Assembly: GCF_004323595.1 (NCBI RefSeq)
Contig: NZ_AP019373.1
Coordinates: 186,001 to 250,000, forward strand
Direction of reading: 5' to 3'
Origin: Sulfuricystis thermophila
GTDB taxonomy: Bacteria; Pseudomonadota; Gammaproteobacteria; Burkholderiales; Rhodocyclaceae
DNA length: 64,000 nucleotides
Shown here: in pieces, positions 985 through 63,758 of the stretch
How positions within the stretch are numbered: position 1 is the first letter of the stretch
Layout of the letters: the number at the start of each line of letters is the position of its first letter
The notes under the pieces: model-generated
What the model was told of the DNA's origin: nothing
Seen by the model: only the letters and a program-made list of their open reading frames with translations
Database searches by the model: none
Translations under genes and position numbers: made by a program

Positions 985-2349
985 ATGAAAAACAGATCGT
1001 TTCTCGCCTGCGCCCTGCTGGTTGCCGTCCTGCCGGCGCCGACTTTTGCAAACCCCTTCGAGACCACGCTGAAGAATGGTCTCAAGGTGATCGTCAAGGA
1101 AGACCACCGCGCGCCGACCGCCGTGCATATGGTCTGGTATCGCGCTGGCAGCATGGACGAGAAGGACGGCACCTCGGGTGTCGCCCATGTGCTCGAACAC
1201 ATGATGTTCAAGGGCACCAAGACCGTGAAACCAGGCGAGTTCAACCAGCGCGTCGCCGCAGCGGGCGGACGCGACAATGCCTTCACCAGCCTCGATTACA
1301 CGGCCTATTTCCAGATCGTGCCGAAAGAAGCGCTCCCTGAGATGATGCGGCTGGAAGCCGACCGGATGGCGAATCTCACGCTCAAAGCCGAGGAATTCAC
1401 CAGCGAAATCGAGGTCGTCAAGGAAGAACGGCGGCTGCGCACCGAGGACAACCCGCAGGCGCGCGTTTATGAAACCCTGAACGCCGCGGCTTTCCTGGCG
1501 CACCCCTACCGCCGGCCGATCATCGGCTGGATGAACGATCTCGACAACATGAGCTGGCGCGATGCGCGCGAGTGGTATCGCGCTTGGTATGCGCCGAACA
1601 ACGCCTATGTCGTCGTGGTGGGCGATGTCGATCATCGCGAGGTGTTCCGGCTCGCCGAAGCGACCTATGGCCGGCACAAGGCAAAACCCCTGCCGGAACG
1701 CAAGCCGCAGAAGGAACCGCCACAACGCGGCGAGCGACGCGCGATCGTCAAGGCGCCCGCCGAGCTGCCCTATCTTTTGATGGCCTGGAAGGTGCCCAAG
1801 CTCGTCGATATCGATCAGGATCGCGAGCCCTTCGCGCTCGAAGTGCTCGCAGCACTCCTCGATGGCAACGACGCGGCGCGTTTTCCCAAGCGCCTGGTGC
1901 GTAGTGAGAAGATCGCCCAGTCGGCCTCGGCCGGCTACGACGCGATCCTCCGTGGCGAAGCGCAATTCGTCCTCGCCGGCCAGCCGGCGGCCGGCCGCAC
2001 GATCGACGCGCTCGAAGCCGCGCTGAAAGCCGAAATCAAGCGCATCCAGGAAGAAGGGGTCACCGAGGAGGAATTGAAGCGCGTCAAAACCCAGGTCGTC
2101 GCCGCGCAGGTCTATAAGCGCGACTCGATGATGGCGCAGGCGATGGAGATCGGCCAGTTCATGTCGGCAGGCTTGTCCTGGCGCGACATCGACAAATTCG
2201 TCGACAAGATCAAGAGCGTCACCGCCGAGGAAGTGCAGGCGGTGGCGAAGAAGTATTTCATCGACGACACGCTCACCGTTGCCGTGCTCGATCCGCAACC
2301 GCTCGATCCGGCGCAGCCGAAGAAGCGCGGCTTTGCCACCCGCCACTGA
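985..2349 (+). CDS. M16 family zinc metallopeptidase, catalytic member
   Basis: This is a 454-residue pitrilysin-type peptidase with an N-terminal signal peptide (about 1-22, ending PTFA), so it should act in the periplasm. The inverted zinc motif HVLEH lies at residues 68-72, and the EVVKEERR segment near 145 supplies the downstream glutamate. The middle and C-terminal parts are the usual inactive M16 half-domain. The next gene encodes a partner without the zinc motif, the known two-subunit arrangement of bacterial M16 pairs. A copy of the window's dispersed half repeat (1023-1047) encodes part of the signal peptide (AVLPAPTFA). Substrate unknown. Confidence 0.93.
   Translation: MKNRSFLACALLVAVLPAPTFANPFETTLKNGLKVIVKEDHRAPTAVHMVWYRAGSMDEKDGTSGVAHVLEHMMFKGTKTVKPGEFNQRVAAAGGRDNAFTSLDYTAYFQIVPKEALPEMMRLEADRMANLTLKAEEFTSEIEVVKEERRLRTEDNPQARVYETLNAAAFLAHPYRRPIIGWMNDLDNMSWRDAREWYRAWYAPNNAYVVVVGDVDHREVFRLAEATYGRHKAKPLPERKPQKEPPQRGERRAIVKAPAELPYLLMAWKVPKLVDIDQDREPFALEVLAALLDGNDAARFPKRLVRSEKIAQSASAGYDAILRGEAQFVLAGQPAAGRTIDALEAALKAEIKRIQEEGVTEEELKRVKTQVVAAQVYKRDSMMAQAMEIGQFMSAGLSWRDIDKFVDKIKSVTAEEVQAVAKKYFIDDTLTVAVLDPQPLDPAQPKKRGFATRH
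1023..1047 (-). repeat. Dispersed half repeat inside M16 gene
   Basis: The reverse complement differs at two positions from the 25-nt end unit seen at the 23.1 kb array (core AGTCGGCGCTGGCGGGACGG). It is read in frame as AVLPAPTF within the signal peptide of the host gene. Confidence 0.6.
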
Positions 2350-2360
2350 AGGTGACTACC

Positions 2361-3647
2361 ATGCGTTTCCTGTTCGTTTTGCTGTGGTTCTGCTTAAGCC
2401 AGGCGATCGCCGGCCCGAAGATTGAACACTGGGTGCTGCCTTCCGGCGCCAGGGTCTATTTCGTCGAGAATCATGATCTGCCGATCCTCGACGTGCAGGT
2501 CGATTTCCCCGCCGGCGATGCGCGCAACCCCAGCGGCAAGGCCGGGCTAGCCAGCTTAACCGCAAGCCTCCTCGATGCCGGCACCCCCGAGCTGGACGAA
2601 GAACACATCTCGGCGCGCCTGGTCGAGCTGGGCGCGCGACTTGCCACCTCTGCCGATCACGACAAGGCGAGCGTCAGCCTGCGCACGCTCTCCTCCCGGG
2701 AGGAAAAGGAGGGCGCGCTGGCGCTGTTCACTGCCGTCCTGTCAGCGCCGACTTTTCCGGCGGCCGCCTTCGAGCGCGAAAAGACGCGCAGCATCGAAGC
2801 GCTCAAAGATGCCGACACGCGCCCGGATGCGATCGCCGCCAAGCGCTTCGCCCAGGCGCTCTATCCCGATCATCCCTATGGCAGGGTGCCGACCGCCGAG
2901 AGCGTCGCCATGATCACGCGCGAAGACCTCGTCGCCTTTCACAAGGCGCATTACGTCGCCCACGGCGCAGTGATCTCGATCCTCGGCGATGTGAGCCGCG
3001 CCGAGGCCGAAACGATCGCACGCAACATCACCGCGGCGCTGCCGGCAGGCCACGCGCCTGCGCCGCTCCCTAGCGTGACGCTGCCGGCGCGCGAGACGAT
3101 CAAAGTCCCTCACCCGGCGGTGCAAGCGCACATCCACATCGGCCTGCCGGCGATCCGGCGCAGCGCCAGCCCAGAATATTTCGCGCTGCTTGTGGGCAAC
3201 TACACCCTCGGCGGCGGCGGTTTCGTCTCGCGGCTGATGAAGGAAGTGCGCGAAAAGCGCGGCTACGCCTACAGCGTCTATTCCTACTTCGGGCCGCGCC
3301 AGCTCGAAGGGCCGTTCGAGATCGGTCTGCAAACCAAGCGCGAGCAGGTCGAGGATGCGCTGAAAGTCGTCCAGGATGTGCTCGAGCGCTTCCTCGCCGA
3401 AGGCCCGACGGAAGAAGAACTCACCGCGGCGAAAAAGAACCTGATCCAGGGCCAGGCGCTGCGCATCGACAGCAATGCGAAGCTGTTGGGCTACCTCTCG
3501 CTGATCGGTTTCTACGATCTGCCGCTCGACTACCTCGACGAGTTTCCGAAAAAGGTCGCGGCGGTAACGCGCGAAGACGTCAAGGCGGCCTTCCGGCGCA
3601 CCGTCAAGCCGGAAAACCTCGTCACCGTGATCGTGGCGGGGAACTGA
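2361..3647 (+). CDS. M16 family protein lacking the zinc motif (partner subunit)
   Basis: This 428-residue protein has a signal peptide (about 1-18) and the M16 fold but no HxxEH; the equivalent region reads GLASLTASLLDAGT. The C-terminal half keeps the GGFVSRLMKEVREKRGYAYSV segment, whose R and Y residues are typical of the substrate-binding subunit of two-chain M16 enzymes. It follows its catalytic partner by 11 bp. I place the start at ATG 2361 because AAGGTG sits 6-11 bases before it; a GTG at 2352 would overlap that site. A half repeat lies at 2732-2756, read as AVLSAPTF. Confidence 0.9.
   Translation: MRFLFVLLWFCLSQAIAGPKIEHWVLPSGARVYFVENHDLPILDVQVDFPAGDARNPSGKAGLASLTASLLDAGTPELDEEHISARLVELGARLATSADHDKASVSLRTLSSREEKEGALALFTAVLSAPTFPAAAFEREKTRSIEALKDADTRPDAIAAKRFAQALYPDHPYGRVPTAESVAMITREDLVAFHKAHYVAHGAVISILGDVSRAEAETIARNITAALPAGHAPAPLPSVTLPARETIKVPHPAVQAHIHIGLPAIRRSASPEYFALLVGNYTLGGGGFVSRLMKEVREKRGYAYSVYSYFGPRQLEGPFEIGLQTKREQVEDALKVVQDVLERFLAEGPTEEELTAAKKNLIQGQALRIDSNAKLLGYLSLIGFYDLPLDYLDEFPKKVAAVTREDVKAAFRRTVKPENLVTVIVAGN
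2732..2756 (-). repeat. Dispersed half repeat inside second M16 gene
   Basis: The reverse complement matches the half-repeat consensus with two differences over 25 nt. It is read in the same frame (AVLSAPTF) as the copy in the preceding gene, although the two M16 genes are not otherwise near-identical here. Confidence 0.6.
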
Positions 3648-8635: not shown

Positions 8636-9448
8636 TTATCGATTCTGACAGGACGGACAGAAATACGTCGACCGCTGTCCCTGGCGGATCTGCCGGATCG
8701 GCGTGCCGCAGCGCAGGCAGGGTTCGCCCGCGCGGCCATAGACCTGGTGGCGCACCTGGAAATCGCCCATGCCCTCCGGCCCGCAGAAATCGCGCAGCGT
8801 GCTGCCGCCGGCGCGGATCGCGGCGCGCAGCGTCGTCTTGATCGCGGGGACCAGCCGTTCGAGCCTTGCCAATGAAACGCTGCCGGCGGCGCGGCGCGGG
8901 TCGATGCCGGCCTGGAACAGGCTCTCCGAGGCATAGATGTTGCCGATGCCGACGATGAGGCGGCTGTCCATCAGCGCCGGCTTGATCGCCACACGCTTAC
9001 CCGCGAGCGTCGCATGCAGCCAGGCCGGTGTGAAGGCGCGAGAGAGCGGCTCGATACCGAGCGTCGCGAGCAGCGGGTGGGCGAGCGGATCGCCTGCCAG
9101 CCAAAGCAGCGCGCCGAAGCGGCGCGGATCGGTGAGCCGTAGGACATCTTCACCAAAGACGAAATCGGCATGATCGTGGCGACCGGCCGGCGTGCCGGGG
9201 GCGACGAAGCGCAGGCTGCCGGACATGCCCAGATGGATCAAGAGATGCCCGTCCGCAAAGTCGAGCAGCAGATATTTGCCGCGACGTTTCGCCTCGATCA
9301 GCGAGCGGCCGGACAAGTGCCGAGGAAGGCCGGCGGGAACCGGATAGCGCAAACTCGGCGCTCGCAGCACGGCACGGTCGAGCTGCCGGCCGGCGAGACG
9401 TTTCTCGATGCCGCGCCGGGTGACTTCGACTTCGGGGAGCTCAGGCAT
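8636..9448 (-). CDS. mutM: Formamidopyrimidine-DNA glycosylase MutM (Fpg)
   Basis: MutM removes 8-oxoguanine and ring-opened purines and nicks the abasic site. The 270-residue protein begins MPELPEVEVTRRG, so the catalytic Pro and Glu2-equivalent are intact. It has the conserved KRRGKYLLLDF (Lys near 57) and ends in the zinc finger CLRCGTPIRQ with the second pair FCPSC. It diverges from the TPR lipoprotein gene across 67 bp. Confidence 0.97.
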   Translation of the reverse strand: MPELPEVEVTRRGIEKRLAGRQLDRAVLRAPSLRYPVPAGLPRHLSGRSLIEAKRRGKYLLLDFADGHLLIHLGMSGSLRFVAPGTPAGRHDHADFVFGEDVLRLTDPRRFGALLWLAGDPLAHPLLATLGIEPLSRAFTPAWLHATLAGKRVAIKPALMDSRLIVGIGNIYASESLFQAGIDPRRAAGSVSLARLERLVPAIKTTLRAAIRAGGSTLRDFCGPEGMGDFQVRHQVYGRAGEPCLRCGTPIRQIRQGQRSTYFCPSCQNR

Positions 9449-11812: not shown

Positions 11813-12651
11813 ACGAGTGGAATCGGGCCTGGCCGGCGCCGGCCAAGCTCAATCTGTTCCTGCACGTCGTCGGCCGACGCTCGGACGGCTACCACCTGCT
11901 GCAGACGGTGTTCCGCTTCATCGAGCTCGCCGACACGCTGCGCTTCGAGCCGCGCAGTGACGGGCGCATCGTGCTCGCCACACCGACCCCGGGTGTGCCG
12001 CCGGAACTGGATCTGGTGGTGCGCGCGGCGGAGATGTTGAAAGTCGGCGCTGGTAGAACGGCACTGGGCGCGACCATCTACCTCGAAAAACACATCCCGA
12101 TGGGCGGTGGCCTGGGCGGCGGCAGTTCCGATGCCGCCACCACGCTGATCGCCCTCGACCGGCTCTGGGGCCTGAATCTGTCGCGCGAGCGCTTGCAGGA
12201 GATCGGCCTGCGCCTCGGCGCCGACGTGCCGGTGTTCATCCATGGCCGCAACTGCTTCGCCGAAGGCGTCGGCGAGCGCTTCACCGACGTGGCGGTGCCC
12301 GACGCCTGGTATTTGTTGAGCTTTCCCGCGGTGCAGGTGCCCACGGCGGCGATTTTTCGCTCGCCCGCTCTCCAGCGCGCCACGCCGGCGATTCGTCCTG
12401 CCGACTGGCGGCCAGGCTTCGGCCACAACGATCTGGAGCCGGTGGCCTGCGCGCTCTATCCCGAGGTGGCGCGGCATCTGAGTGAGCTGCGCCGCTTCGG
12501 CGATGCGCGCATGACAGGGTCAGGCGCCTGCTGTTTCGTCAGCTTCGAGACACGCGCCGAAGCCGAACGGTCCCGCCAGGCCTTACCTGCGGATATCCGC
12601 AGTGAAATCATTCGGGGGCTCCCCTTGCACCCGTTGGCAAAACTTGAGTAA
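11809..12651 (+). CDS. ispE: 4-(cytidine 5'-diphospho)-2-C-methyl-D-erythritol kinase IspE
   Basis: IspE phosphorylates CDP-methylerythritol in the MEP isoprenoid pathway. The 280-residue GHMP kinase has PAPAKLNLFLHV at the start, the phosphate loop PMGGGLGGGSSDA near 104-116 and the C-terminal MTGSGACCFVSF. Residues 78-85 (KVGAGRTA) are encoded by a copy of the dispersed half repeat (12040-12063), in a variable stretch before the GHMP loop. The stop codon overlaps the -10 box of the rpoH promoter. Confidence 0.97.
   Translation: MNEWNRAWPAPAKLNLFLHVVGRRSDGYHLLQTVFRFIELADTLRFEPRSDGRIVLATPTPGVPPELDLVVRAAEMLKVGAGRTALGATIYLEKHIPMGGGLGGGSSDAATTLIALDRLWGLNLSRERLQEIGLRLGADVPVFIHGRNCFAEGVGERFTDVAVPDAWYLLSFPAVQVPTAAIFRSPALQRATPAIRPADWRPGFGHNDLEPVACALYPEVARHLSELRRFGDARMTGSGACCFVSFETRAEAERSRQALPADIRSEIIRGLPLHPLAKLE
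12040..12063 (+). repeat. Dispersed half repeat inside ispE
   Basis: Matches AAAGTCGGCGCTGGCGGAAC plus GGCA with two differences over 24 nt and is read in frame as KVGAGRTA, the same frame used in mltA and the YgjP-like gene. Confidence 0.7.
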
Positions 12652-14911: not shown

Positions 14912-15634
14912 CTATTGGCCAGCCAATAGCTTACTCAAATCCTCGGAAATTTGCCGGGCCGTCATGCCATGGGGAATCTTCAGTCGCAGCCGACCCTGTG
15001 GATCGTAGGCGAAGCTGTCGGCCGTATGGTCGATGCCATAGTTTTCGGCGTCTTCTCCGACCTTGCGGTAGATCACCTTGAAACCCCGCGCGGCTTGCCG
15101 TGTCGTGTCGGGATTGGCGAAGAGGCCGAGAAAACGTCCGTCGAACTGGGGCACGTATTCGGCCAGTCGCGCTGGCGTGTCGCGTTCCGGATCGAGGGTG
15201 ACGAACAGCACCTGCACGCGGTCGGCATCCGCGCCGATGAGGCGCATCACCCCTTTCAGGTTCGCCAGCGTCGTCGGGCAAACGTCCGGGCAGTGCGTAT
15301 AACCGAAGAACACCACGACGACCTTGCCACGAAAGTCGGCGCTGGCGACACGGCTCCCCGTATGCGTGGTGAAGCCGTCCAGGAGCGCCAGCTGCCCGTA
15401 GTCGGCGCCGCTGACATCCTGGGCATGGAAGCGCTTTTCCGGCGGTGGCGCGCAGCCCGAGAGAAAATGCACCAGCGCCGCACCTACCGCGATGCCGAGC
15501 AGCACGAAGGCCAAGCGCTGGACCAGCGGGCGCAGGTTCGCACGCGCACGGCGGGCGGGCGGGCCGGCGCGCTGCACGAGCAGGCTGGCGGCGACGATCA
15601 GCAGCAAGAGGATGATGACGATCTTGATAAACAA
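14912..15634 (-). CDS. SCO1/SenC copper chaperone with an extra N-terminal membrane module
   Basis: The C-terminal 180 residues are a Sco domain for copper delivery to cytochrome oxidase, with the copper-binding CPDVCP motif, the distal histidine in DHTADSF and LDPERDTP. The N-terminal 60 residues are unusual: two hydrophobic helices (IVIILLLLIVAASLLV and LAFVLLGIAVGAALVHFL) joined by an Arg-rich loop, like a small twin-TM protein fused to Sco. I use TTG 15634, one base after the mpl stop; ATG 15667 and ATG 15679 inside mpl are alternatives. A half-repeat-like sequence (15332-15354) covers RVASADF. Confidence 0.8.
   Translation of the reverse strand: MFIKIVIILLLLIVAASLLVQRAGPPARRARANLRPLVQRLAFVLLGIAVGAALVHFLSGCAPPPEKRFHAQDVSGADYGQLALLDGFTTHTGSRVASADFRGKVVVVFFGYTHCPDVCPTTLANLKGVMRLIGADADRVQVLFVTLDPERDTPARLAEYVPQFDGRFLGLFANPDTTRQAARGFKVIYRKVGEDAENYGIDHTADSFAYDPQGRLRLKIPHGMTARQISEDLSKLLAGQ
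15332..15354 (+). repeat. Half-repeat-like sequence in Sco gene
   Basis: The first 16 bases equal the repeat core exactly, then two to three differences. It overlaps the naturally conserved ADFRGK region of Sco proteins, so descent from the repeat is less certain than at other sites. Confidence 0.4.
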
Positions 15635-20113: not shown

Positions 20114-20998
20114 ATGTGGCTTTCCGTCGCCATCGAAACCGACGCCCAGCACGCCGATAAGCTTTCGGATGCGCTTCTCACCGCCGGGGCGATTTCGGTC
20201 TCGGTCGAAGATGCGCTGGCCGGCACCGAATTCGAGACGCCGCAATTCGGCGAGCCCGGCTCACCGACGACACCGTTGTGGGAGCAAAGCCGGGTCGTCG
20301 CCCTATTCGAACCCTCGGACGATTTGCGCGAACGGATCGTCACCGCCTTGAAAGAAGCCGGACTCGCCGTCCCAGCCACGATCCCCTTCGAGGAGGTCGC
20401 CGAAGCCGACTGGGTGCGGCTGACGCAATCCCAGTTCGAGCCGATCCGCATTTCCGAGCGGCTGTGGATCGTGCCTTCCTGGCATGAGGCGCCCGATCCG
20501 GCGGCGATCAATCTGGCGCTCGATCCGGGGCTCGCTTTCGGTACCGGCTCGCATCCGACCACGCGGCTGTGCCTCGAATGGCTCGAAGCGAATGTCACGC
20601 CTGGCTGTTCGGTGCTCGATTACGGCTGCGGCTCGGGCATCCTGGCGATCGCCGCGAAGAAACTCGGCGCTGGCCGAACGGCAGGGGTGGATGTCGATCC
20701 GGCGGCGCTCGCCTCTGCCGCCGAGAATGCGGCCCGCAATGACGTCACGATCCGGCTCTTGGGCTCCAACGAGCCGCTCGACGAGCGCTTCGAGCGCGTC
20801 GTCGCCAACATCCTCACCAATCCCCTGATGCTCCTCGCCCCGCTGCTCAGCGCGCGGCTCGAAACCGGCGGTCGGCTGGCGCTCTCCGGCGTGCTCGAAA
20901 CCCAGGCGGAACAGGTCATCGCCGCCTATGCACCCTATCTTCCCCTGCGGATCGGCGCCGTGCTTGATGGCTGGGTCAGGCTGGAAGGAATGAAATAA
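20114..20998 (+). CDS. prmA: Ribosomal protein L11 methyltransferase PrmA
   Basis: PrmA trimethylates ribosomal protein L11. The 294-residue protein has the small N-terminal L11-binding domain, a linker with DPGLAFGTGSHPTTRLCLEWL, the SAM motif VLDYGCGSGILAIAA and the post-I acidic DVDP, then NILTNPL. The segment KLGAGRTA (20660-20683) coincides with a near-copy of the dispersed repeat, although KLGAG-like sequence also occurs naturally at this position of the family. It follows accC by 37 bp. Confidence 0.96.
   Translation: MWLSVAIETDAQHADKLSDALLTAGAISVSVEDALAGTEFETPQFGEPGSPTTPLWEQSRVVALFEPSDDLRERIVTALKEAGLAVPATIPFEEVAEADWVRLTQSQFEPIRISERLWIVPSWHEAPDPAAINLALDPGLAFGTGSHPTTRLCLEWLEANVTPGCSVLDYGCGSGILAIAAKKLGAGRTAGVDVDPAALASAAENAARNDVTIRLLGSNEPLDERFERVVANILTNPLMLLAPLLSARLETGGRLALSGVLETQAEQVIAAYAPYLPLRIGAVLDGWVRLEGMK
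20660..20683 (+). repeat. Half-repeat-like sequence in prmA
   Basis: Matches the half-repeat consensus with two differences in 24 nt and is read in frame as KLGAGRTA. It includes the codons CGA and GCA, uncommon in this GC-rich sequence, which hints at repeat origin, but the protein motif is also natural for PrmA. Confidence 0.45.
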
Positions 20999-21007
20999 AC
21001 TCTTGGC

Positions 21008-22015
<1,008 letters not shown>

Positions 22016-22080: not shown

Positions 22081-23016
22081 ATGCGTACCCTCATCTGCGG
22101 CTCGCTCGCTTACGACACCATCATGGTCTTCAAAGACCGCTTCAAGCACCACATCCTGCCGGAGCAGATCCACATCCTCAACGTCGCCTTCCTGGTGCCG
22201 GACATGCGGCGCGAATATGGCGGCTGCGCCGGCAACATCGCCTACAACCTGCACCTGCTGGACGGCAACCCGCTGATCATGGCGGCGGTTGGCGACGATT
22301 GCGAGCCCTACATGCTGCGGCTGAAGAAACTCGGCCTCGATGCTACCCATGTGCGCCGCGTGCCCGACACCTACACCGCGCAGGCCTTCATCACCACCGA
22401 TCTCGACGACAACCAGATCACGGCTTTTCATCCCGGCGCGATGAACTACTCGCATGAAAACCGCATCGGCGAGGTGCGCGATGTCTCGCTCGGCATCGTC
22501 GCGCCGGACGGCCGCGAAGGCATGCTGCAGCACGCGCGCGAATTCCACGAGCGCGGCATCCCCTTCGTCTTCGATCCCGGTCAGGGGCTGCCGATGTTCG
22601 ATGGCGCCGAACTGCGCGAATTCCTGCGGCTGGCCGACTATTGCACGGTCAATGACTACGAAGCCAAGCTGATGACTGAGCGCACCGGCAGGCCACTGGA
22701 AGAGTTGGCGCGCGAAGTGAGGGCGCTCGTCGTCACCCTGGGCGGCAATGGCTCGCGCATCTATGCCGACGGCTCGGTGATCGACATTCCCGCCGTCACA
22801 CCCGAAGCGCTGCTCGACCCCACCGGCTGCGGCGATGCCTATCGCGCCGGCTTGCTCTATGGCATCGAGAAAGGCTGGAGCTGGGAAAAAACCGGGCGGC
22901 TGGCGAGTCTCATGGGCGCGATCAAGATCGCCCACCGCGGCGGCCAGAACCACAAACCGACGCGCGCGGAAATCGCCGCACGTTACCGCGCCGCCTGGGG
23001 CGAAGACCTCGACTGA
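22081..23016 (+). CDS. PfkB family carbohydrate/nucleoside kinase
   Basis: This 311-residue kinase has the PfkB signatures GGCAGNIAYNLHLLDG near 48-63 and the C-terminal DPTGCGDAYRAGLLYGIEKG near 248-267, where the second Asp is the catalytic base. It starts CGSLAYDTIMVF. The sequence looks most like the adenosine-kinase/ribokinase-like branch found in betaproteobacteria, but substrate is not predictable here. The 5' region is a heptamer repeat, and a 54-bp repeat array begins at the base after its stop codon. Confidence 0.88.
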   Translation: MRTLICGSLAYDTIMVFKDRFKHHILPEQIHILNVAFLVPDMRREYGGCAGNIAYNLHLLDGNPLIMAAVGDDCEPYMLRLKKLGLDATHVRRVPDTYTAQAFITTDLDDNQITAFHPGAMNYSHENRIGEVRDVSLGIVAPDGREGMLQHAREFHERGIPFVFDPGQGLPMFDGAELREFLRLADYCTVNDYEAKLMTERTGRPLEELAREVRALVVTLGGNGSRIYADGSVIDIPAVTPEALLDPTGCGDAYRAGLLYGIEKGWSWEKTGRLASLMGAIKIAHRGGQNHKPTRAEIAARYRAAWGEDLD

Positions 23017-23147
23017 AAATCGGCGCTGGCGAAAATGAGGACGTCCCGCCGGGCGCCGACTCACCTCGCACAGTCGGCGCTGGCGGAAATGAAAACGTCC
23101 CGCCGGGCGCCGACTCACCTCGCACAGTCGGCGCTGGCGGGACGGCA
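23017..23147. repeat. 54-bp palindromic repeat array (two units plus half unit)
   Basis: The core CGGCGCTGG recurs at 23021, 23075 and 23129, an exact 54-bp period. Each full unit holds a hairpin, AGTCGGCGC-TGGCGG against CCGCC-GG-GCGCCGACT, followed by TCACCTCGCAC. The array ends in a half unit closed by GACGGCA. It starts directly after the PfkB kinase stop and lies between convergent genes. Confidence 0.95.
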
Positions 23148-23194
23148 CCCTACGGACGCCGCACCGACGCGCGCAGCAGAGTTTTTACCTGCGC

Positions 23195-24214: not shown

Positions 24215-25147
24215 ATGAGGCAAATCGTTCCGGTTCCCTGCGGTCGTTTCGCGCCGTCGCCGACGGGGCCTTTGCATTTCGGCTCGCTCGTCGCCGCGCT
24301 CGGCTCTTATCTGGAAGCGAAGGCGCGCGGCGGCAAGTGGCTAGTGCGCATCGAAGACGTCGACCGGCCGCGCTGTAGGCAGGAATATGCTGACAGTATT
24401 CTCGCGACATTGGCAGCATTCGGCTTCGAATGGGATGGCGAGGTGATGTATCAGAGCCGGCGCACGGCCCGTTACCGCGAGGTTCTGGAAACCTTGCAGC
24501 GCCAGGGCGCCGTCTATCCTTGTGGCTGCACACGGGCGGAATTGGCCACGGCGCCGCCTGGTGTCGATGGTGCGCCGGTGTATCCCGGCACCTGCCGCGG
24601 AGGATTGCCAGCGGGGAAGCAGGCGCGTGCCTGGCGCCTGCGCGTTTCGGGTGCGATCGACTTCGTCGATCTGGTGCAGGGGCCGCAGCATCAGGATCTC
24701 GCGCGCGAGGTGGGCGATTGCGTGTTGTTGCGCGCCGATGGCTTATTCGCCTATCAGCTCGCGGTGGTGGTCGATGATGCCGATCAGGGGGTCGATCACG
24801 TGGTGCGCGGCGCGGATCTGATCCATTCCACCGCGCGGCAGATTTTCCTGCAGCGACTGCTCGGCTTTCCGACGCCGCAGCATGCCCACCTACCGGTGGC
24901 GGTCGATGCGACGGGGGCGAAGTTGTCGAAGCAGACCAGGGCGGCGCCGGTCGAGGCGCGCGATCCGGTCGTATCGCTCATCGCCGCGGCACGGTTTCTC
25001 GGCATGACTCCGCCCGCGGACCTGTGCCGTGCCACCAGCGCCGATTTCTGGTCTTGGGCGCGGGAGAACTGGGATCTGGCGCGCGTGCCGAAGCGGATAA
25101 CGGCGCCCGTGCCTACTCCCGATAATCCTCACCGCCATAACGCGTGA
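24215..25147 (+). CDS. gluQRS: Glutamyl-Q tRNA(Asp) synthetase
   Basis: This truncated GluRS-like enzyme attaches glutamate to queuosine in tRNA-Asp. The 310-residue protein starts at ATG 24215, giving MRQIVPVPCGRFAPSPTGPL with the HIGH-equivalent PLHFGSL, a zinc-type CGCTRAEL/CRGG region, and the KMSKS-equivalent AKLSKQTRA; there is no anticodon-binding domain. Earlier in-frame ATG 24143 lies inside the divergent thioredoxin. Its 3' end overlaps convergent clsB by 35 bp. A weak half-repeat match (25024-25048) covers CRATSADF. Confidence 0.94.
   Translation: MRQIVPVPCGRFAPSPTGPLHFGSLVAALGSYLEAKARGGKWLVRIEDVDRPRCRQEYADSILATLAAFGFEWDGEVMYQSRRTARYREVLETLQRQGAVYPCGCTRAELATAPPGVDGAPVYPGTCRGGLPAGKQARAWRLRVSGAIDFVDLVQGPQHQDLAREVGDCVLLRADGLFAYQLAVVVDDADQGVDHVVRGADLIHSTARQIFLQRLLGFPTPQHAHLPVAVDATGAKLSKQTRAAPVEARDPVVSLIAAARFLGMTPPADLCRATSADFWSWARENWDLARVPKRITAPVPTPDNPHRHNA
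25024..25048 (-). repeat. Weak half-repeat match in gluQRS
   Basis: The reverse complement keeps the 9-base centre TCGGCGCTGG but has four differences over 25 nt. It may be a degenerate copy or chance. Confidence 0.3.
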
Positions 25148-27589: not shown

Positions 27590-27667
27590 AAAGTCGGCGC
27601 TGGCGGAAACAAGGACGTTCCGCCGGGCGCCGACTCACCTCGAAAAGTCGGCGCTGGCGGAACGGCA
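27590..27667. repeat. 54-bp palindromic repeat (one unit plus half unit)
   Basis: CGGCGCTGG occurs at 27595 and 27649, again 54 bp apart, with the same hairpin and TCACCTCG spacer as the 23.0 kb array, ending GGCGGAACGGCA. It fills the gap between convergent thioesterase and nadA genes. Confidence 0.95.
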
Positions 27668-27677
27668 GCAGCCTTCT

Positions 27678-29923: not shown

Positions 29924-31333
29924 ATGACCCCCCAAGACGTCATCAAGATGGTGGAAGAAAAGGAAGTCAAGTTCGTCGATTTCCGCTTCACCGACATTCG
30001 CGGCAAGGAGCAGCACGTCGGCGTGCCGGTTTCCGCCTTCGGCCTCGAGAAATTCGAAGACGGCCATGCCTTCGACGGCAGCTCGATCGCCGGCTGGAAG
30101 GGCATCCAGGCCTCCGACATGCTGCTGATGCCCGATCCCTCGACCGCCTACATCGACCCTTTCATGGACGAGACCACGCTGATCCTCTCCTGCGACGTGG
30201 TCGAGCCGGCCGACGGCAAGGGCTATGACCGCGATCCGCGCTCGATCGCCAAGCGCGCCGAAGCCTACTTGAAGAGCACCGGGCTGGGCGATGCCGCCTA
30301 TTTCGGCCCCGAGCCCGAGTTCTTCATCTTCGACTCGGTCGAATGGAAGGTGGACATGTCCGGCTCGTATTGCAAGGTCTTCTCGGAAGAGGCTGCCTGG
30401 GCCACCGCCGAGAAGTTCGAAGGCGGCAACATCGGCCACCGGCCGATGGTCAAGGGTGGTTACTTCCCGGTGCCGCCGGTCGACAGCCTCAACGACATCC
30501 GCGCCGCGATGGTGCTGGCCTTGGAAGAGTGCGGCGTGCCGGTCGAGGTGCATCACCATGAAGTCGCCACCGCCGGCCAGTGCGAGATCGGCACCAAGTT
30601 CTCGACGCTGGTGCGCCGTGCCGACTGGACGCAGATCCTCAAATACATCGTGCATAACGTCGCCCATTCGTATGGGAAAACGGCCACCTTCATGCCCAAG
30701 CCGATCGTCGGTGACAACGGCTCCGGCATGCATGTGCATCAGTCGATCTGGAAAGATGGCAAGAACCTCTTCGCCGGCAACGGCTATGCGGGCCTGTCCG
30801 AGTTCGCGCTCTACTACATCGGCGGCATCATCAAGCACGCCCGTGCCCTCAACGCGATCACCAACCCTGGCACCAACAGCTACAAGCGTCTGGTGCCCGG
30901 CTTCGAAGCGCCCGTGAAGCTCGCCTACTCGGCCCGCAACCGCTCGGCTTCGATCCGCATCCCCTTCGTGCAGTCCGACAAGGCGCGCCGCATCGAAGTG
31001 CGCTTCCCCGATCCGACCGCGAACCCGTATCTGGCCTTCACCGCGATGATGATGGCCGGCCTCGATGGCGTGCAGAACAAGATCCACCCGGGCGATCCGG
31101 CCGACAAGAACCTCTACGACCTGCCGCCGGAAGAGGATGCCAAGATCCCGACCGTCTGTTCCTCGCTCGATCAGGCGCTCGACTATCTCGACAAGGATCG
31201 CGAGTTCCTCACCCGCGGCGGCGTGTTCAGCAACGATTTCATCGACGCCTTCATCGAGCTGAAGATGGAAGAGGTCACCAAGTTCCGCATGACCACGCAT
31301 CCGGTCGAATACGAGATGTACTATTCGCTCTAA
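29924..31333 (+). CDS. glnA: Glutamine synthetase type I GlnA
   Basis: GlnA makes glutamine from glutamate and ammonium. The 469-residue GSI-beta enzyme has [30 protein letters not shown], the ATP-site [16 protein letters not shown] and [16 protein letters not shown]. Tyr398 in [10 protein letters not shown] is the adenylylation site, so activity should be controlled by GlnE. Expression is controlled by NtrC through the sigma-54 promoter upstream; ntrB-ntrC follow in the same direction after a terminator and the DUF4124 gene. Confidence 0.98.
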
Positions 31334-31355
31334 TTCGGCGCTCGCCGGACGGCAC
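31333..31355 (+). repeat. Half-repeat-like sequence at glnA 3' end
   Basis: It overlaps the last base of the glnA stop and differs from the half-repeat consensus at three of 23 positions. It sits immediately before the glnA terminator. Confidence 0.45.
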
Positions 31356-35247: not shown

Positions 35248-36015
35248 ATGTTCGATCATTCCGTCCTCGTCCAGGCGCTCGGTGCCGATGCCCGCTATTT
35301 CGACGCCGAGCTGCTGCCGGAATGCGCGTCGACCAATGCGCTGCTGCTCGCCCGTGCCGAGGCCGGCGCGCCTTCGGGCATGGTGATCGTCGCCGAAAGG
35401 CAGACGGCCGGTCGGGGGCGGCGGGGGCGGGCATGGCTTTCCGCGCCCGGCGACAGCCTGACGTTTTCATTGCTGTGGCGTTTCGCGCCAGGAACCCTGC
35501 CGCAGGGTCTGTCTCTGGCGGCCGGGTTGGCGGTCACCCAGGCGCTGACGAAACTCGGCGTTGGCGATACGGCACTGAAATGGCCCAACGATGTGATGAA
35601 GGGCGGCAGGAAGCTCGCCGGCATCCTCGTCGAGCTGGTGCCGGGGGCGCCGCATGCCGCAGTGATCGGCATCGGCCTGAACCTGAAGCTCCCGGCCGCG
35701 ATGCCGGAGGAATTGCGCGCCATCAGCGCAGCGCTCGATACCGATGCCGAGCCGAACATCCTGCTCGCTGCGATCCTGAGCGAACTCAAAACGACGCTGG
35801 AAATCTTCGCCCGCCATGGCTTCGGCGCCTTGCGCGAGGCGTGGCGGGCGCGCCATGCATTCGAGGATGCGCCTATCCGGCTTCTCGCCGATTTCGCGTC
35901 ACCGCGCGCAGGCATCTGCCGGGGCGTCGATCGCGATGGCGCGCTGCTGTTCGAGAGCGACGGGCGCATCGAGCGCGTGCTCTCCGGCGAAGTCTCATTG
36001 AGGCCCGTTTCATGA
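35248..36015 (+). CDS. birA: Biotin-[acetyl-CoA-carboxylase] ligase BirA (catalytic domain only)
   Basis: BirA attaches biotin to AccB. The 255-residue protein starts directly with the catalytic domain (CASTNALLLARAEAG, GRGRRGRAWLSAPGDSL, LKWPNDVMKGGRKLAGIL), and lacks the N-terminal DNA-binding domain of E. coli BirA, so it cannot be a biotin repressor. I use ATG 35248; a 5' extension to 35203 has no family match. A degenerate half repeat covers KLGVGDTA. The stop overlaps coaX (ATGA). Confidence 0.93.
   Translation: MFDHSVLVQALGADARYFDAELLPECASTNALLLARAEAGAPSGMVIVAERQTAGRGRRGRAWLSAPGDSLTFSLLWRFAPGTLPQGLSLAAGLAVTQALTKLGVGDTALKWPNDVMKGGRKLAGILVELVPGAPHAAVIGIGLNLKLPAAMPEELRAISAALDTDAEPNILLAAILSELKTTLEIFARHGFGALREAWRARHAFEDAPIRLLADFASPRAGICRGVDRDGALLFESDGRIERVLSGEVSLRPVS
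35551..35574 (+). repeat. Degenerate half-repeat match in birA
   Basis: Four differences from the consensus over 24 nt, in the same frame (KLGVGDTA) as the ispE and mltA copies. It may be a decayed copy or resemblance. Confidence 0.35.
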
Positions 36016-36755
36016 TCCTCTGCATCGACGCCGGCAATACGCGCCTGAAATGGGGACTGTGGGACGCCGCCGCCGGGGGCGGGCATGACGGTGCGCGCTG
36101 GCGCGCGCAAGGCGTTTGTGCGCATGCCGACTGCGTCGCGCTGGCGTCGGCCTTGCCGGCTGGCGTCGACCGCATGCTCGCCTGCAATGTCGCCGGGCCG
36201 GAGGTGGCGACGCGCATCGAAGCGCTGGCGGCTAACCTCGACGTGCCGCTGACATGGTTCAGGAGCAGCGCTGCCTGCTGCGGGGTGACCAATGCCTATG
36301 ACGACCCCTCACGACTCGGTGCCGACCGCTGGGCGGCGCTGATCGGCGCGCGCGGTTTTCACAGGGGCGCCGCGCTCGTCGTGATGATGGGCACCGCGAC
36401 GACGATCGACGTGCTCGATGCCTCGGGCCGCTTTCGCGGCGGACTGATCCTGCCGGGTCTTGAATTGATGCGTCGGTCGCTCGCCCGCAATACCGCCGGG
36501 TTGCCCGAAGCGCGTGGCCGCTATCGCGAATTGCCGACCAATACCGACGATGCGATCGAAAGTGGCTGTCTTGCCGCCACGCTCGGCGCGATCGAGCGCA
36601 TGGCAAAAGCGGCGTGCCGTCCCACCAGCGCCGACTTTTGCGTGCTGCTCTCGGGTGGCGGCGCCGATGCGTTGGCGCCGCATCTCGATCTACCGGTTCG
36701 CCGCATCGACAATCTGGTGCTCGAAGGGCTGGCACGAGTGGCGGCCGGCTGTTAA
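36012..36755 (+). CDS. coaX: Type III pantothenate kinase CoaX
   Basis: CoaX phosphorylates pantothenate, the first committed CoA step, and is insensitive to CoA feedback. The 247-residue ASKHA-fold protein has DAGNTRLKWGLWD at the start, GADRWAALIGARG, the GTATTIDVLDASGRFRGGLILPG core and SGGGADAL near the C-terminus. birA-coaX pairing is standard for betaproteobacteria. A near-exact half repeat (36615-36639) encodes CRPTSADFC before the last glycine-rich motif. Confidence 0.95.
   Translation: MILCIDAGNTRLKWGLWDAAAGGGHDGARWRAQGVCAHADCVALASALPAGVDRMLACNVAGPEVATRIEALAANLDVPLTWFRSSAACCGVTNAYDDPSRLGADRWAALIGARGFHRGAALVVMMGTATTIDVLDASGRFRGGLILPGLELMRRSLARNTAGLPEARGRYRELPTNTDDAIESGCLAATLGAIERMAKAACRPTSADFCVLLSGGGADALAPHLDLPVRRIDNLVLEGLARVAAGC
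36615..36639 (-). repeat. Dispersed half repeat inside coaX
   Basis: The reverse complement differs at one position from the 25-nt end unit of the 23.1 kb array. It is read as CRPTSADF, a different frame from the M16 copies. Confidence 0.7.
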
Positions 36756-38166: not shown

Positions 38167-38319
38167 ATGCGCCTCGCGTTCCTGATCCTGCTGTTTGCGA
38201 ACATCGTGCTCTTCGTCTGGGGGCAGGGATATGCCGGCAGCCGGGAAGCGGGGCGCGAGCCCGCGCGGCTGATGCAACAGCTGGCGCCCGACAAGCTCAC
38301 CGTCACCCGCGCCGAATGA
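38167..38319 (+). CDS. Small single-span membrane protein before coaE
   Basis: This 50-residue reading frame opens with one hydrophobic helix ([17 protein letters not shown]) and ends in a short polar tail ([14 protein letters not shown]). It overlaps coaE by four bases (ATGA). In related bacteria some genes with this N-terminus continue into a SPOR domain; here nothing follows, so this could be a truncated form. Whether it is translated is uncertain, but codon usage and coupling support it. Confidence 0.6.
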
Positions 38320-38942
38320 GCTTCGTCGTCGGCCTGACCGGCGGCATCGGCAGCGGCAAGAGCGCTGTCGCCGAGCGTTTCGCCGCCCGCGGCGTCCCGA
38401 TCGTCGATACCGATGCGATCGCTCACGAGCTGACCGCGCCGGGCGGCGCCGCGATCGCGCCGATCCGTGCGGCCTTCGGCGATGCGGTGCTGACGGCCGA
38501 CGGCGCACTCGACCGCGCTGCGATGCGCCGGCTCGTGTTCGCGGAGCCCGCAGCGCGCAAGCGGCTCGAAGCGATCCTGCATCCGCTGATCCGTGCCGAG
38601 AGCGAGGCGCGGCTGGGCCGTCTTGCCAGCGCCGAGTATGCGATCCTGGTCGTGCCGCTGCTGGTCGAATCGGGCGATTTCCGTTCCCGTGTCGATCGCG
38701 TCTGCGTCGTCGATTGCCCTGAAGAATTGCAGATCGCACGGGTGATGGCCAGAAGCGGCCTGTCGCGTGGCGAGGTGCAAGCGATCATCGCGGCGCAGGC
38801 CAGCCGCGCGGCACGTCTCGCTGCCGCGGACGATGTCATCGACAACTCTCGGGGTCTTGCCGAGCTCGATGTCCAGGTTACGCAACTGCACGAAAAATAT
38901 CTCGCGCTGGCGCGCGCCCGCCGGAGTGGGCAAAACGATTGA
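38316..38942 (+). CDS. coaE: Dephospho-CoA kinase CoaE
   Basis: CoaE performs the last step of CoA synthesis. The 208-residue P-loop kinase has [18 protein letters not shown] at 4-21, [14 protein letters not shown] with the catalytic Asp, HPLIRAE and VVPLLVESG. It precedes zapD and yacG as in many gamma- and betaproteobacteria; the usual pilD-type peptidase before it is absent here. Confidence 0.95.
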
Positions 38943-41751: not shown

Positions 41752-42963
41752 GTGAAGCTCTGGAATTTAGCACTTCTCGTCTGGCTTGCCGGTTGTGCCG
41801 TCGCCCCGGCGCCAACCCCCTGTCCGCCTTGCCCTGCCGTCGAAGCGCCCAAGCCAGCCGTCAAACCGTTCCAGCTCGCCCAGTGGAGCGACTTGCCCGG
41901 CTGGGAAAACGAAGACCACGCCGCCGTGCTCGAACTGTTCAAAGGGCAATGCGCGACGCTCGCCAAACGGCCCTTGTGGCTGTCGACCTGCGAGTCGGCG
42001 CAGAAAGTCGGCGCTGGGGGAAATGAGAGCGTCCCGCCGGGCGCCGACTCACCTCCAAAAGTCGGCGCTGGCGTGACGGCACCCGGCGCAGCGAAAGCGT
42101 GGTTCGAGGCGAATTTCCGGCCCTGGCAGATGGTCGCGCCGGACGGCGGTCGTGAAGGTCTCATCACCGGCTATTACGAGCCCGTCGTGCGCGGCAGCCG
42201 CACCCGCAAACCGCCGTATCTGACCCCGGTGTTTGGCCCGCCGGACGATCTGATCGTCGTCGATCTGGCCAGCCTTTACCCGGAGCTGAAAAACATGCGG
42301 CTGCGCGGTCGGCTCGACGGCCGGCGGCTGATCCCCTATTACAGCCGTGCCGAATGGACGGCGGAAGAAGAAAGACGCGCCGATCAGGCACTCCTCTGGC
42401 TCGACGACCCGATCGACTTTTTCTTCCTGCAAATCCAGGGATCGGGACAAGTGGTGCTCGACGATGGCAGCCGGGTCAGGATCGGCTACGCCGACCAGAA
42501 CGGCCATCCCTATCGTTCGATCGGCAGCTGGCTGATCGAGCAGAATGAACTCAAACCTCACGAAGCCTCGATGCAGGGCATCCGCGCCTGGGCCGAGCGC
42601 AACTCGCAGCGCCTGCAGGAACTGCTCAACGCCAATCCGAGCCTGGTCTTCTTCCGCGAGCTGCCCGCCGATGGCTCTGGTCCGCCTGGCGCCTTGGGCG
42701 TGCCCTTGACGCCCGAGCGCTCGCTCGCCGTCGATCCGCGTTTCATCCCTTTGGGCGCACCGGTCTGGCTAGCGACGACGCGCCCGAATGGCCAGGAGAC
42801 GCTCGCCCGGCTGATGCTGGCGCAGGATACCGGCGGCGCGATCAGGGGCCCGGTGCGCGCCGATTTCTTTTGGGGCAGCGGGCCGGAGGCGGGCGCGCTG
42901 GCCGGCCGGATGCGCCAGAAGGGCAGGGTGTGGGTATTGCTGCCCCGCTGGCTGGAACCTTAA
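41752..42963 (+). CDS. mltA: Membrane-bound lytic murein transglycosylase A MltA with repeat-encoded insertion
   Basis: MltA cleaves glycan strands of peptidoglycan from the outer membrane. The 403-residue lipoprotein (lipobox LAGC) starts at GTG 41752, has the double-psi barrel (GLITGYYEPVVRGSR, FFFLQIQGSGQVVLDDG, RIGYADQNGHPYRSIG) and the 3D domain with catalytic Asp in AQDTGGAIRGPVRADFFWG. Residues 85-110 (KVGAGGNESV...KVGAGVTA) are encoded by one 54-bp repeat unit plus a half unit, inserted in frame before the conserved ARAWFEANF-like segment. The insertion is Gly/Pro-rich and lies outside the catalytic core. Confidence 0.93.
   Translation: MKLWNLALLVWLAGCAVAPAPTPCPPCPAVEAPKPAVKPFQLAQWSDLPGWENEDHAAVLELFKGQCATLAKRPLWLSTCESAQKVGAGGNESVPPGADSPPKVGAGVTAPGAAKAWFEANFRPWQMVAPDGGREGLITGYYEPVVRGSRTRKPPYLTPVFGPPDDLIVVDLASLYPELKNMRLRGRLDGRRLIPYYSRAEWTAEEERRADQALLWLDDPIDFFFLQIQGSGQVVLDDGSRVRIGYADQNGHPYRSIGSWLIEQNELKPHEASMQGIRAWAERNSQRLQELLNANPSLVFFRELPADGSGPPGALGVPLTPERSLAVDPRFIPLGAPVWLATTRPNGQETLARLMLAQDTGGAIRGPVRADFFWGSGPEAGALAGRMRQKGRVWVLLPRWLEP
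42004..42081 (+). repeat. 54-bp repeat unit inserted in frame in mltA
   Basis: CGGCGCTGG occurs at 42009 and 42063, exactly 54 bp apart, and the whole 78-nt stretch matches the intergenic arrays at 23.0 and 27.6 kb (hairpin, TCACCTC spacer, closing ACGGCA). It adds 26 codons without breaking the frame. Confidence 0.95.
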
Positions 42964-46255: not shown

Positions 46256-46290
46256 AAAAATCGGCGCTGGCGGGACGGCACCCCGCCAGC
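46256..46290. repeat. Half repeat forming a hairpin between amtB and dsbC
   Basis: AAAATCGGCGCTGGCGGGACGGCA matches the array end unit, and its GCTGGCGGG (46266-46274) pairs perfectly with CCCGCCAGC (46282-46290). No T-run follows. It fills the space between convergent genes and may act as a mRNA 3'-end structure. Confidence 0.85.
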
Positions 46291-57476: not shown

Positions 57477-58183
57477 AAACCGTGGTCGGCATGATCGAAT
57501 ACGGTCGCGAGACCATCCGCTACGAAGTGCGCTTCCTGCCAACTCGGCGGACGCTGGGTATCGAGGTGCATCCCGACCAGCGAGTCGTGATCCGGGCGCC
57601 GGTGGGTTGCACGGAAGATGTGATTGCAGATCGGGTACGCAAGCGCGCCTCGTGGATCAGCCGGCAGATAGCCGATTTCCGGCGTTACAGCCCCCGCACG
57701 CCGCAGCGGCAATACGTCAGCGGCGAGACGCATCTTTACCTGGGACGGCAGTATCGCTTGAAAGTCGGCGCTGGCGAGACGGCATCGGTCCGGATGACGC
57801 GCGGCCAGCTATGCGTGACGATGCCCGGCATTCCCGATCCGGAGCGCGTCAAGACGATGCTGCACCGCTGGTACCTCGACCACGCCAGGCGGGTCTTCAG
57901 CGAGGTTCTCGACCAGTGCCTCATCAGGTTCAAGGGGCATCCACGGCCCCGTCTGATCGTCCGGGCAATGCAGTCGCGCTGGGGCAGCCTCTCGCAGACG
58001 GGAAGCATGACGCTGAATGTCAATTTGGTCAGGGCGCCGCGCGCCTGCATCGAATACGTCGTCACCCATGAGTTGTGCCATCTGCGGCACCGTGATCACG
58101 ACGCCAGTTTTTTCAAGCTGCTTGGGCGGGTGATGCCGGATTGGGAGCAGCGGAAGCAGAAGTTGGAAACGGCACTTCTTTGA
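57473..58183 (+). CDS. YgjP/SprT-like M48-type metallopeptidase
   Basis: This 236-residue protein has the YgjP signature: the zinc motif HELCHLRHRDH near 199-209, SRWGSLSQTGSMTLNVNL and an N-terminal beta domain (VHPDQRVVIRAPVG). YgjP-like genes are frequent companions of type I restriction loci with unknown role. Residues 97-104 (KVGAGETA) are encoded by a copy of the dispersed half repeat, showing that the element reaches the island too. jetA follows after 14 bp. Confidence 0.9.
   Translation: MKTVVGMIEYGRETIRYEVRFLPTRRTLGIEVHPDQRVVIRAPVGCTEDVIADRVRKRASWISRQIADFRRYSPRTPQRQYVSGETHLYLGRQYRLKVGAGETASVRMTRGQLCVTMPGIPDPERVKTMLHRWYLDHARRVFSEVLDQCLIRFKGHPRPRLIVRAMQSRWGSLSQTGSMTLNVNLVRAPRACIEYVVTHELCHLRHRDHDASFFKLLGRVMPDWEQRKQKLETALL
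57761..57784 (+). repeat. Dispersed half repeat in YgjP-like gene
   Basis: Matches the half-repeat consensus with one to two differences over 24 nt and is read in frame as KVGAGETA, as in ispE and mltA. It is the only copy I find in the 15-kb island. Confidence 0.7.
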
Positions 58184-58197
58184 ATCGGGGGGATGAA

Positions 58198-59676
58198 ATG
58201 TCAGATTTCAATTTCCCGACGATGGCATTGAACTTTGCCACTCTCGATGCCCTGCGCGCCCATCATCCCGCCTGGCGTCTGCTACGCTCGGATCATGCGC
58301 CGCTGGTGGCAAGCTTCCTGCACCGGGTGTTCGTCGAGCCCAATGTGCGCGTGATCAGCGAGGCCGATCTCGTCGAGCGGCTTGCGGACGAGCTCTACGC
58401 CTTGCGTCAAGAACTCGGCGAAGCCGCGTTTCCCAAGCCGGCGCAGGAATATCTCAATGACTGGGCGTCGCCTGAGAAGGGCTGGCTGCGCAAGTTCTAC
58501 AAGCCCGGCACCGACGAGGCACAATTCGACCTCACGCCCGCGACCGAGAAGGCGATCGCCTGGCTGGCGCAGCTCTCCGAACGGCAGTTCGTCGGCACCG
58601 AATCGCGTCTGCTCACGCTGTTCGACCTGCTCAAGCAGATGAGCGAGGGCAGCGAGGCCGACCCGGCCAAACGCGTTGCCGAGCTGCAAAGGAAACGCGA
58701 CGAAATCGAAGCCGAGATTGCTCGCGTGCAGGCCGGCGATGTGCCACTGCTGGATGACACTGCTCTGAAGGATCGTTTTTTGCAGTTCATGCAGGGCGCG
58801 CGTGAGTTGCTCGCCGACTTTCGCGAGGTGGAGCACAATTTTCGTCAGCTCGACCGCCACGTGCGCGAGCGCATCGCGCTGTGGGAGGGCGGCAAGGGAG
58901 CGCTGCTGGAAGAGATCATGGGTGAGCGCGATGCGATTGCCGATTCCGATCAGGGCAAGAGCTTTCGCGCGTTCTGGGATTTCCTGCTCTCCAGCCGTCG
59001 TCAGGAGGAGTTGACCGAGTTGCTGGAACGGGTGCTCGAGCTGCCGGCGGTGGCGGCCTTGCAGCCCGATGCCCGTATCCGCCGCGTGCATTACGACTGG
59101 CTGGAGGCAGGCGAACATACTCAGCGCACGGTGGCGGCCTTGTCGCAACAACTGCGCCGCTTTCTCGACGACCAGGCCTGGCTGGAAAACCGCCGCATCA
59201 TGGATATCCTACACGGCATCGAGAGCAAGGCCCTGGCGCTGCGAGATACGCCGCCGATGGGTGCCGTGATGGAGATGGCCGAGGCGTGCGCCGATATCGA
59301 ACTGGTGATGGAGCGGCCGTTGTTTACGCCGGCGGTGAAACCGGTCATTGCCAACCTGGCGCTGCTGGCAGGAGACGAGGACATCGACTCCTCCGCCTTG
59401 TTCGATCAGGTGGTGGTAGACAAAGCGAGGCTCACCCGTCACATCCGCCACGCCTTGCAAGGTAGGGCGCAGATCACGCTGCGCGAACTGGTGGCCGCAC
59501 AGCCCCTGCAGCAGGGCCTGGCGGAGCTGGTGGCCTACCTGCAACTGGGCAGCGATGCCTTCAACGCCGTAGTGGATGAGGACACGCCGGAAGTCATAGA
59601 GTGGCAGGCAGAAGACGACCAGGGCGAAGCCGTGATTCGGATGGCGCGGCTGCCCCGGGTGATTTTCATGCGCTGA
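58198..59676 (+). CDS. jetA: Wadjet JetA (DUF3375)
   Basis: JetA is the kleisin-like subunit of the type I Wadjet complex, which recognises and cleaves small circular DNA. The 492-residue protein starts at ATG 58198 after GGGGG and has the DUF3375 opening LDALRAHHPAWRLLRSDHAP, LVASFLHRVF, LVERLADELYALRQEL, and a long helical middle (RVAELQRKRDEIEAEIARVQ). The identity rests on this plus the jetBCD neighbours. It follows the YgjP-like gene by 14 bp. Confidence 0.93.
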   Translation: MSDFNFPTMALNFATLDALRAHHPAWRLLRSDHAPLVASFLHRVFVEPNVRVISEADLVERLADELYALRQELGEAAFPKPAQEYLNDWASPEKGWLRKFYKPGTDEAQFDLTPATEKAIAWLAQLSERQFVGTESRLLTLFDLLKQMSEGSEADPAKRVAELQRKRDEIEAEIARVQAGDVPLLDDTALKDRFLQFMQGARELLADFREVEHNFRQLDRHVRERIALWEGGKGALLEEIMGERDAIADSDQGKSFRAFWDFLLSSRRQEELTELLERVLELPAVAALQPDARIRRVHYDWLEAGEHTQRTVAALSQQLRRFLDDQAWLENRRIMDILHGIESKALALRDTPPMGAVMEMAEACADIELVMERPLFTPAVKPVIANLALLAGDEDIDSSALFDQVVVDKARLTRHIRHALQGRAQITLRELVAAQPLQQGLAELVAYLQLGSDAFNAVVDEDTPEVIEWQAEDDQGEAVIRMARLPRVIFMR

Positions 59677-59707
59677 CCTCAAGAACGAAACGGGGAATTC
59701 AACAGGG

Positions 59708-63746: not shown

Positions 63747-63758
63747 GGATTCCGCACA

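Follow-up and report, generated by a model that had tools for sequence, protein, structure and literature searches.

What is the palindromic repeat that lies in the reading frame of mltA in Sulfuricystis thermophila, and how much of it was inserted there? The gene lies in a window of 64,000 nucleotides, the whole stretch of DNA that was analyzed, which corresponds to bases 186001-250000 of the source genome (G000; single contig, 2,737,315 bases). The features of the locus are the following.

41752..42963, + strand: mltA, lytic transglycosylase MltA, 403 aa, GTG start, Pfam MltA and 3D domains
42004..42057, + strand: 54-bp palindromic unit in the reading frame (residues 85-102); the S. multivorans (G002) orthologue lacks it
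42058..42082, + strand: 25-nt uptake-sequence-like motif, residues 103-110; 37.4 bits; present there in several congeners

The Pfam MltA domain was matched at residues 137-302 (E 3e-60) and the 3D domain at residues 323-396 (E 1.1e-25). PDB relatives are 7esj, 6qk4 and 2g5d. Residues 85-110 of the protein, KVGAGGNESVPPGADSPPKVGAGVTA, are encoded by the 54-bp unit and a 25-nt partial copy (42004-42082); the 25-nt sequence repeats the first part of the unit. A sequence-only reading had seen here a dispersed palindromic element placed in frame. This was confirmed, and further copies of the unit lie in the window at 23016-23148 and 27590-27668. The same reading had counted 26 inserted codons and expected a clean 26-residue gap at residues 85-110 in relatives. 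Alignment with the relatives ruled out an insertion of that size. MltA of S. multivorans shows a clean gap of 18 residues and retains the 25-mer, and comparison with the closest array-free orthologue gives a gain of 54 bp, or 18 residues. The segment is therefore compound: the unit accounts for the insertion of 18 residues, and the last 8 come from the 25-mer, which several congeners also have at this place. The motif-free MltA protein of G040 is 20 residues shorter where the array lies.

Variation between relatives had also been foreseen, and the array state does differ: one unit in G000 and G004, none in G002. For G002, either loss of the unit or never having gained it would fit, because G004, which is less like G000 by flank identity, has the unit. 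The 18 residues gained are predicted to fall in a disordered loop. In an AlphaFold2 model built with 26 sequences, residues 89-106 have a pLDDT below 50 and lie between helices 74-84 and 111-121, N-terminal of the Pfam domains. As a separate observation, mltA of G010, G016 and G008 (L008, L009, L010) carries a different, longer insert at the same site, NIGAGPPQADVPPVGGSEQGLRARGANKVGAGG-like and ending in the 25-mer. The place therefore accepts more than one kind of insert.

The 25-nt sequence had been taken for half a unit, a truncated repeat. We found the reverse relation: the 25-mer is the primary motif, with hundreds of copies, and the 54-bp unit sits on it. Its consensus is AAAGTCGGCGCTGGCGGGACGGCAC, loose at position 4 and at positions 16-18. 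A profile grown from the copies in the window was scanned over 464 kb of G000, made up of the window and 20 stretches of 20 kb each. It gave 113 sites at a cut-off of 12 bits and 106 at 20 bits; the corresponding numbers in an equally large 4th-order Markov control were 2 and 0. In the whole genome, the pattern TCGGCGCTGGCNNNACGGCA with at most two mismatches occurs 556 times, evenly balanced between the strands (279 forward and 277 reverse); the reversed control pattern occurs 1 + 2 times. Chance is excluded as the origin of the 25-mer by both comparisons (113 against 2, and 556 against 3). Single 25-mers and two further arrays in the window are listed here.

1022..1046, - strand: 25-mer near the start of gene 985-2346
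2731..2755, - strand: 25-mer in gene 2361-3644; no length change compared with G006
9351..9375, + strand: 25-mer in gene 8639-9448 (- strand), presumably mutM-like; no length change compared with motif-free relatives
12040..12064, + strand: 25-mer, the gene around it presumably ispE-like; net -1 residue compared with G006
15332..15356, + strand: 25-mer in called gene 14915-15634 (- strand)
20660..20684, + strand: 25-mer in gene 20114-20995, which we take to be prmA-like; no length change compared with motif-free relatives
23016..23148, + strand: intergenic array, two 54-bp units and a terminal 25-mer
25024..25048, - strand: 25-mer, profile match
27590..27668, + strand: intergenic array, one 54-bp unit and a terminal 25-mer; the orthologous site of G002 has neither
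31331..31355, + strand: 25-mer of 24.3 bits, starting at the stop codon of a gene that we take to be glnA-like
35551..35575, + strand: 25-mer, the gene around it presumably birA-like; no length change in G000, G002 and G001
36614..36638, - strand: 25-mer in gene 36012-36752; net +2 residues
38615..38639, - strand: 25-mer in gene 38316-38939, presumably coaE-like; net +1 residue
40979..41003, - strand: 25-mer in a DUF815 ATPase gene; no length change
46257..46281, + strand: 25-mer; at the same place G004 has two 54-bp units and G002 has one
57761..57785, + strand: 25-mer, within a gene for a YgjP-like metallopeptidase; no other strong site lies in 46.3-64 kb

By a crude gene caller, the 107 sites divide into 82 within genes, 23 intergenic ones and 2 that overlap a gene in part. 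Since 91.8% of bases were called coding, intergenic 25-mers are over-represented. The commonest frames across the motif read KVGAGGTA (28) and, antisense, AVPPAPT (27). Spacing is more even than random, with a CV of 0.55 compared with 0.84 in the random sets (0.5th percentile 0.68); the test used 84 gaps, the shortest 611 bp, and neighbours within 200 bp were merged in the observed and the random sets alike.

No site of at least 20 bits was found in 160 kb sampled from two small replicons of S. multivorans, compared with 28.9 expected from 155 kb of its chromosome (p 2e-9). One of them, C3 (102,623 bases), is plasmid NZ_AP018720.1, the first 15 kb being 100% identical, and C2 (149,340 bases) is presumed to be a plasmid. 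Strong sites are unevenly divided within the window: the first 46.3 kb have 16, and the remaining 17.7 kb, where a type I restriction system and a Wadjet-like operon are encoded, have one. Two of the 20 sampled 20-kb stretches of G000 are without a 25-mer: a copper/metal region (L045) and a ribosomal-protein region (L035). The latter rules out that every empty stretch is foreign, so absence of the 25-mer is not always a sign of foreign DNA.

The distribution among relatives is uneven. Within the genus, 18 of 19 genomes (among them G000) have 255-741 matches to the 25-mer pattern with at most two mismatches, and the remaining congener, G006, has only two. Genomes of three other genera (G019, G026 and G055) have 609-672 sites, G040 has 30, and the remaining 78 genomes have at most 21 each, where the reversed control gave up to 14. 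In a family-wide count (199 genomes, at most one mismatch), 76-569 sites occur in each of 21 genomes, which belong to six genera; none of the other 178 exceeds 14. Dialects were seen as well. In G102, of a seventh genus, the motif reads AAAGTCGACGCTGG...ACGGCA, with TCGAC. ACGGCG is the usual ending in G026 and G055, where few sites were seen; G010 too is loose at the last base. These dialects come from k-mer enrichment in small samples, with enough sequence for G102, G055 and G010 alone, and the G102 contigs had been picked by pattern matches.

How does the 25-mer affect the proteins that contain it? We aligned proteins which, from their sequences, we take to be PrmA-, MutM- and BirA-like (20, 19 and 20 genomes, respectively). 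The 25-mer replaces other codons in them and protein length is unchanged, except for two and three extra codons in G010 and G012 in the BirA-like alignment. We also compared coding sites with motif-free homologues; 19 of 132 coding queries had one that spans the site. Sixteen of these were plain 25-mers, out of 99 plain coding ones. Seven showed zero change (one of them in a 34% alignment, which may be to a paralogue), 13 of the 16 fell between -1 and +2 residues, and the other three were at -3, +4 and +8. The three array queries gave +20, +12 and one meaningless alignment at 30%. In conserved genes the 25-mer thus appears mostly without length change. The 54-bp unit, unlike the 25-mer, does insert.

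An array consists of one to about five units (AAAGTCGGCGCTGGCGG, 8-9 loose bases, CGTCCCGCCGGGCGCCGACTCACCTCGA) followed by a terminal 25-mer. Within the unit, which is palindromic, a 37-bp core is flanked on both sides by 17-bp direct repeats, whose sequence is that of the left part of the 25-mer. The unit and its neighbour can form hairpins, because each unit holds an inverted near-copy of the motif. RNA folding gave -27.9 kcal/mol (z -3.2) for 42004-42057 and -31.8 (z -4.6) for 42030-42082, and was unremarkable for the whole 79-nt array (z -1.8) and for the 25-mer alone (z -0.4). A unit pattern with at most two mismatches was counted in 61 genomes: 44 in G000, 33 in G002, 8 in G004, 6 in G007 and 0-3 in the other 57. 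The 39 candidates in G000 include two that are not arrays (a minus-strand match in the window, and L224). Arrays stand at 37 places, 36 of them ending in a recognizable 25-mer; at L234 the end copy has decayed. The spacing between units in the counted arrays is 54 bp throughout; a few units, at L215, L222 and L238, exceed 54 bp by one or two bases.

We then compared array-free orthologous sites at 8 loci, a count from which two wrongly called arrays (mltA of G004 read on the reverse strand, and a normal gene matched by the pattern) had been dropped. At 7 of the 8, including mltA of S. multivorans, at least one relative has a plain 25-mer. At the eighth, the 27590 locus, G002 is without a 25-mer. 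At one of the seven, a two-unit array locus of G004, a further array-free relative, G014, is also without one. Unit numbers differ at two further loci (two compared with one, and two compared with four or five) and are equal at two more. One array lies in an E2 acyltransferase gene (Pfam) near 1158032 of G000:C1 and near 1190008 of G002:C1, with equal unit number. Its flanks are 99-100% identical, compared with 72-94% at other G000-G002 pairs, which suggests a recent gene exchange between these two genomes.

The insertion into mltA is not an isolated case. Of 36 G000 arrays classified with a crude gene caller, 21 sit in frame within called genes, 13 are intergenic and 2 overlap a gene in part. 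This classification left aside L234 with its decayed end copy, and the decay count given below used 37 arrays. The parallel with Rickettsia palindromic elements, drawn earlier from the sequence, thus holds for behaviour. That no coding array lies in a stop-containing frame is built in, because the caller requires open frames. The genes with arrays include murA, ribD, trpC and metH, and 18 of the 20 array genes other than mltA have a Pfam match. Set beside solved structures, the array shows up as additional residues. The two units of MurA (36 residues) fall in a stretch of 47 residues that corresponds to 9 in 6wfm, and MetH has 24 where 3bul has 2. The RibD query aligns to 8dq9 in two blocks, which overlap by two residues in 8dq9, and its residues 65-82 fall unmatched between them. 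For TrpC, 276 residues are aligned, compared with 259 in 6y88. Two properties let proteins tolerate the unit: its length of 54 bp is divisible by three, and four of the six frames of the consensus unit are open.

At a probability of about 0.75, we read the 25-mer as a DNA-uptake-like tag on which the 54-bp palindromic unit settles, and the MltA segment as both together. The uptake role of the tag and the manner in which the unit spreads are what we infer. Enrichment of the tag would come from preferential uptake of DNA that carries it, with homologous recombination as the next step. New copies may arise by point mutation or by recombination. Units would be gained and lost by slippage or recombination across the 17-bp direct repeats. 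As these bound the 37-bp core, exactly 54 bp would be added or removed each time, and a deletion would restore the plain tag. Units at different tags share core and loop and so were probably copied between tags, perhaps via their 17-25 bp homology, and perhaps during transformation or gene conversion.

Homologues of ComEC and DprA were found. ComEC is present in 55 of 61 relatives, among them nearly all motif-free ones (congener G006 included); none was found in G018, a congener that bears the motif and whose genome is 83% complete. A search with Pfam HHH_3 found no ComEA homologue, the sole match being a Tex protein. Counts of GspH-type pilins do not separate the genomes with the 25-mer from those without it, and therefore offer no receptor candidate.

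Two quite different readings have to be weighed. The 25-mer might be the binding site of a chromosome-organizing or replication protein, with the 54-bp unit as a cluster of such sites. The inverted near-copies in the array agree with this, and even spacing and absence from the sampled small replicons would also fit it. However, a 25-nt motif in more than 500 copies, balanced 279 to 277 between the strands genome-wide, argues against it. So does the near absence of the motif from 178 of 199 family genomes (at most 14 sites) and from congener G006 (2 sites), which is odd for a basic chromosomal function. We consider such a binding site improbable. We think it very unlikely that both parts form one mobile palindromic element of REP/MITE type that inserts whole and leaves the 25-mer as a decayed half copy, which is close to the sequence-only reading. 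The unit itself is palindromic, dispersed and inserted, as such an element would be, but the 25-mer stands mostly without insertion in conserved genes, is far more abundant than the unit (556 compared with 44), and occurs in most genomes of the genus with no unit or nearly none. REP and BIME elements are short palindromes, clustered or tandem. Compared with REP/BIME elements with a RAYT, the arrays lie within called genes in 21 of 36 cases, and the Y1 (REP-type) transposase domain PF01797 had no match in G000 at E 0.001. The lack of this domain rules out a REP/RAYT origin and also weighs against the whole mobile element.

With the 25-mer as an uptake-like tag and the unit settling on it, the nature of the unit can be seen in two ways. 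It may be an inert by-product: inverted tags formed a hairpin once, which then spread by occasional ectopic gene conversion and slippage with no advantage to unit or cell. This variant is compatible with the tag reading, and we give it somewhat less than an even chance. Decay of the copies favours it weakly. The left part of the first unit has at least 2 mismatches (14 positions) in 11 of 37 arrays, compared with 5 of 37 for the following or terminal copy, which would agree with better preservation of the end copy. Four of the 11, with at least 9 mismatches, probably reflect a shifted register, and what was scored as the "terminal" copy is a further unit in two arrays. That one unit core recurs at 37 places speaks against an inert by-product, although this conservation is partly built in, because the units were found by a pattern covering much of the core. 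The unit may otherwise be a selfish, transposase-free element that rides natural transformation, uses the tag as target and carrier, multiplies in tandem and enters essential enzymes in frame. We regard this as doubtful.

The neisserial DNA uptake sequence (DUS) is 10-12 nt long, occurs once per 1-2 kb, and its letters include TGCCGTC. The Sulfuricystis motif differs in having 25 nt in two blocks at about one per 5 kb, in another bacterial family, and in the 54-bp tandem unit on a subset of its sites. The reverse complement of the 25-mer begins GTGCCGTC, so that TGCCGTC is common to both; this may be chance. DNA uptake sequences have been described for Neisseriaceae and Pasteurellaceae (PMC3630211, PMC2397512, PMC1939737). 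DUS resemble the 25-mer in having abundant dispersed copies within and between genes, under-representation in recently acquired genes, dialects that track phylogeny, and close inverted pairs at terminators (PMC3630211, PMC2397512). Many new DUS copies in Neisseria are thought to arrive by recombination and face gaps (PMC2397512). The Pasteurellacean USS is alike in its extended motif of comparable length (29 bp analyzed), its even spacing and its lack of orientation bias, and more than half of the H. influenzae copies lie in ORFs (PMC1939737). Its hosts belong to another class of bacteria.

The 54-bp unit behaves like the Rickettsia palindromic elements (RPE), palindromic repeats that sit in frame in metabolic genes unrelated to one another; in R. 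conorii, almost half of the copies lie in ORFs (PMC10969869). Compared with RPE, of about 150 bp, the Sulfuricystis unit is 54 bp long, tandem, and placed on a pre-existing 25-nt tag. In the open-access literature (with few subscription journals and no bioRxiv preprints), we found no report of uptake sequences in this bacterial group; in open-access literature we likewise found none of in-frame insertion of uptake sequences.

Should the 25-mer prove to be an uptake sequence, a third bacterial group would have sequence-tagged DNA uptake. Its members are environmental betaproteobacteria and not animal commensals, and at least six genera with their dialects would be open to comparison. The origin, change and receptor-finding of uptake tags would then be testable outside mucosal bacteria. 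The 54-bp unit is a natural experiment in its own right: it has entered repeatedly at the tag into MurA, RibD and MetH, and empty, single and multiple states occur in close relatives.

Other features were noticed in the same DNA. At 58198-64000 of the window, genes for DUF3375, DUF4194/MksE and SbcC-like proteins (Pfam) stand in a row running towards the window end, and we take this to be a Wadjet-type (JetABC) plasmid-defence operon. The type I restriction genes, with a RhuM-like gene, lie upstream of it. A long hexamer run (CCTGAG, CCAGAA) at 21278-21427 encodes a Pro-Glu repeat in gene 21008-22012. A second dispersed repeat, GAGCTTGTGAAAA..., occurs in G000 stretches L031, L042, L044, L046, L049 and L050. 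The 464 kb sampled contain 12 exact copies of AGCTTGTGAAAA from this repeat, some as nearby pairs on opposite strands (L044).
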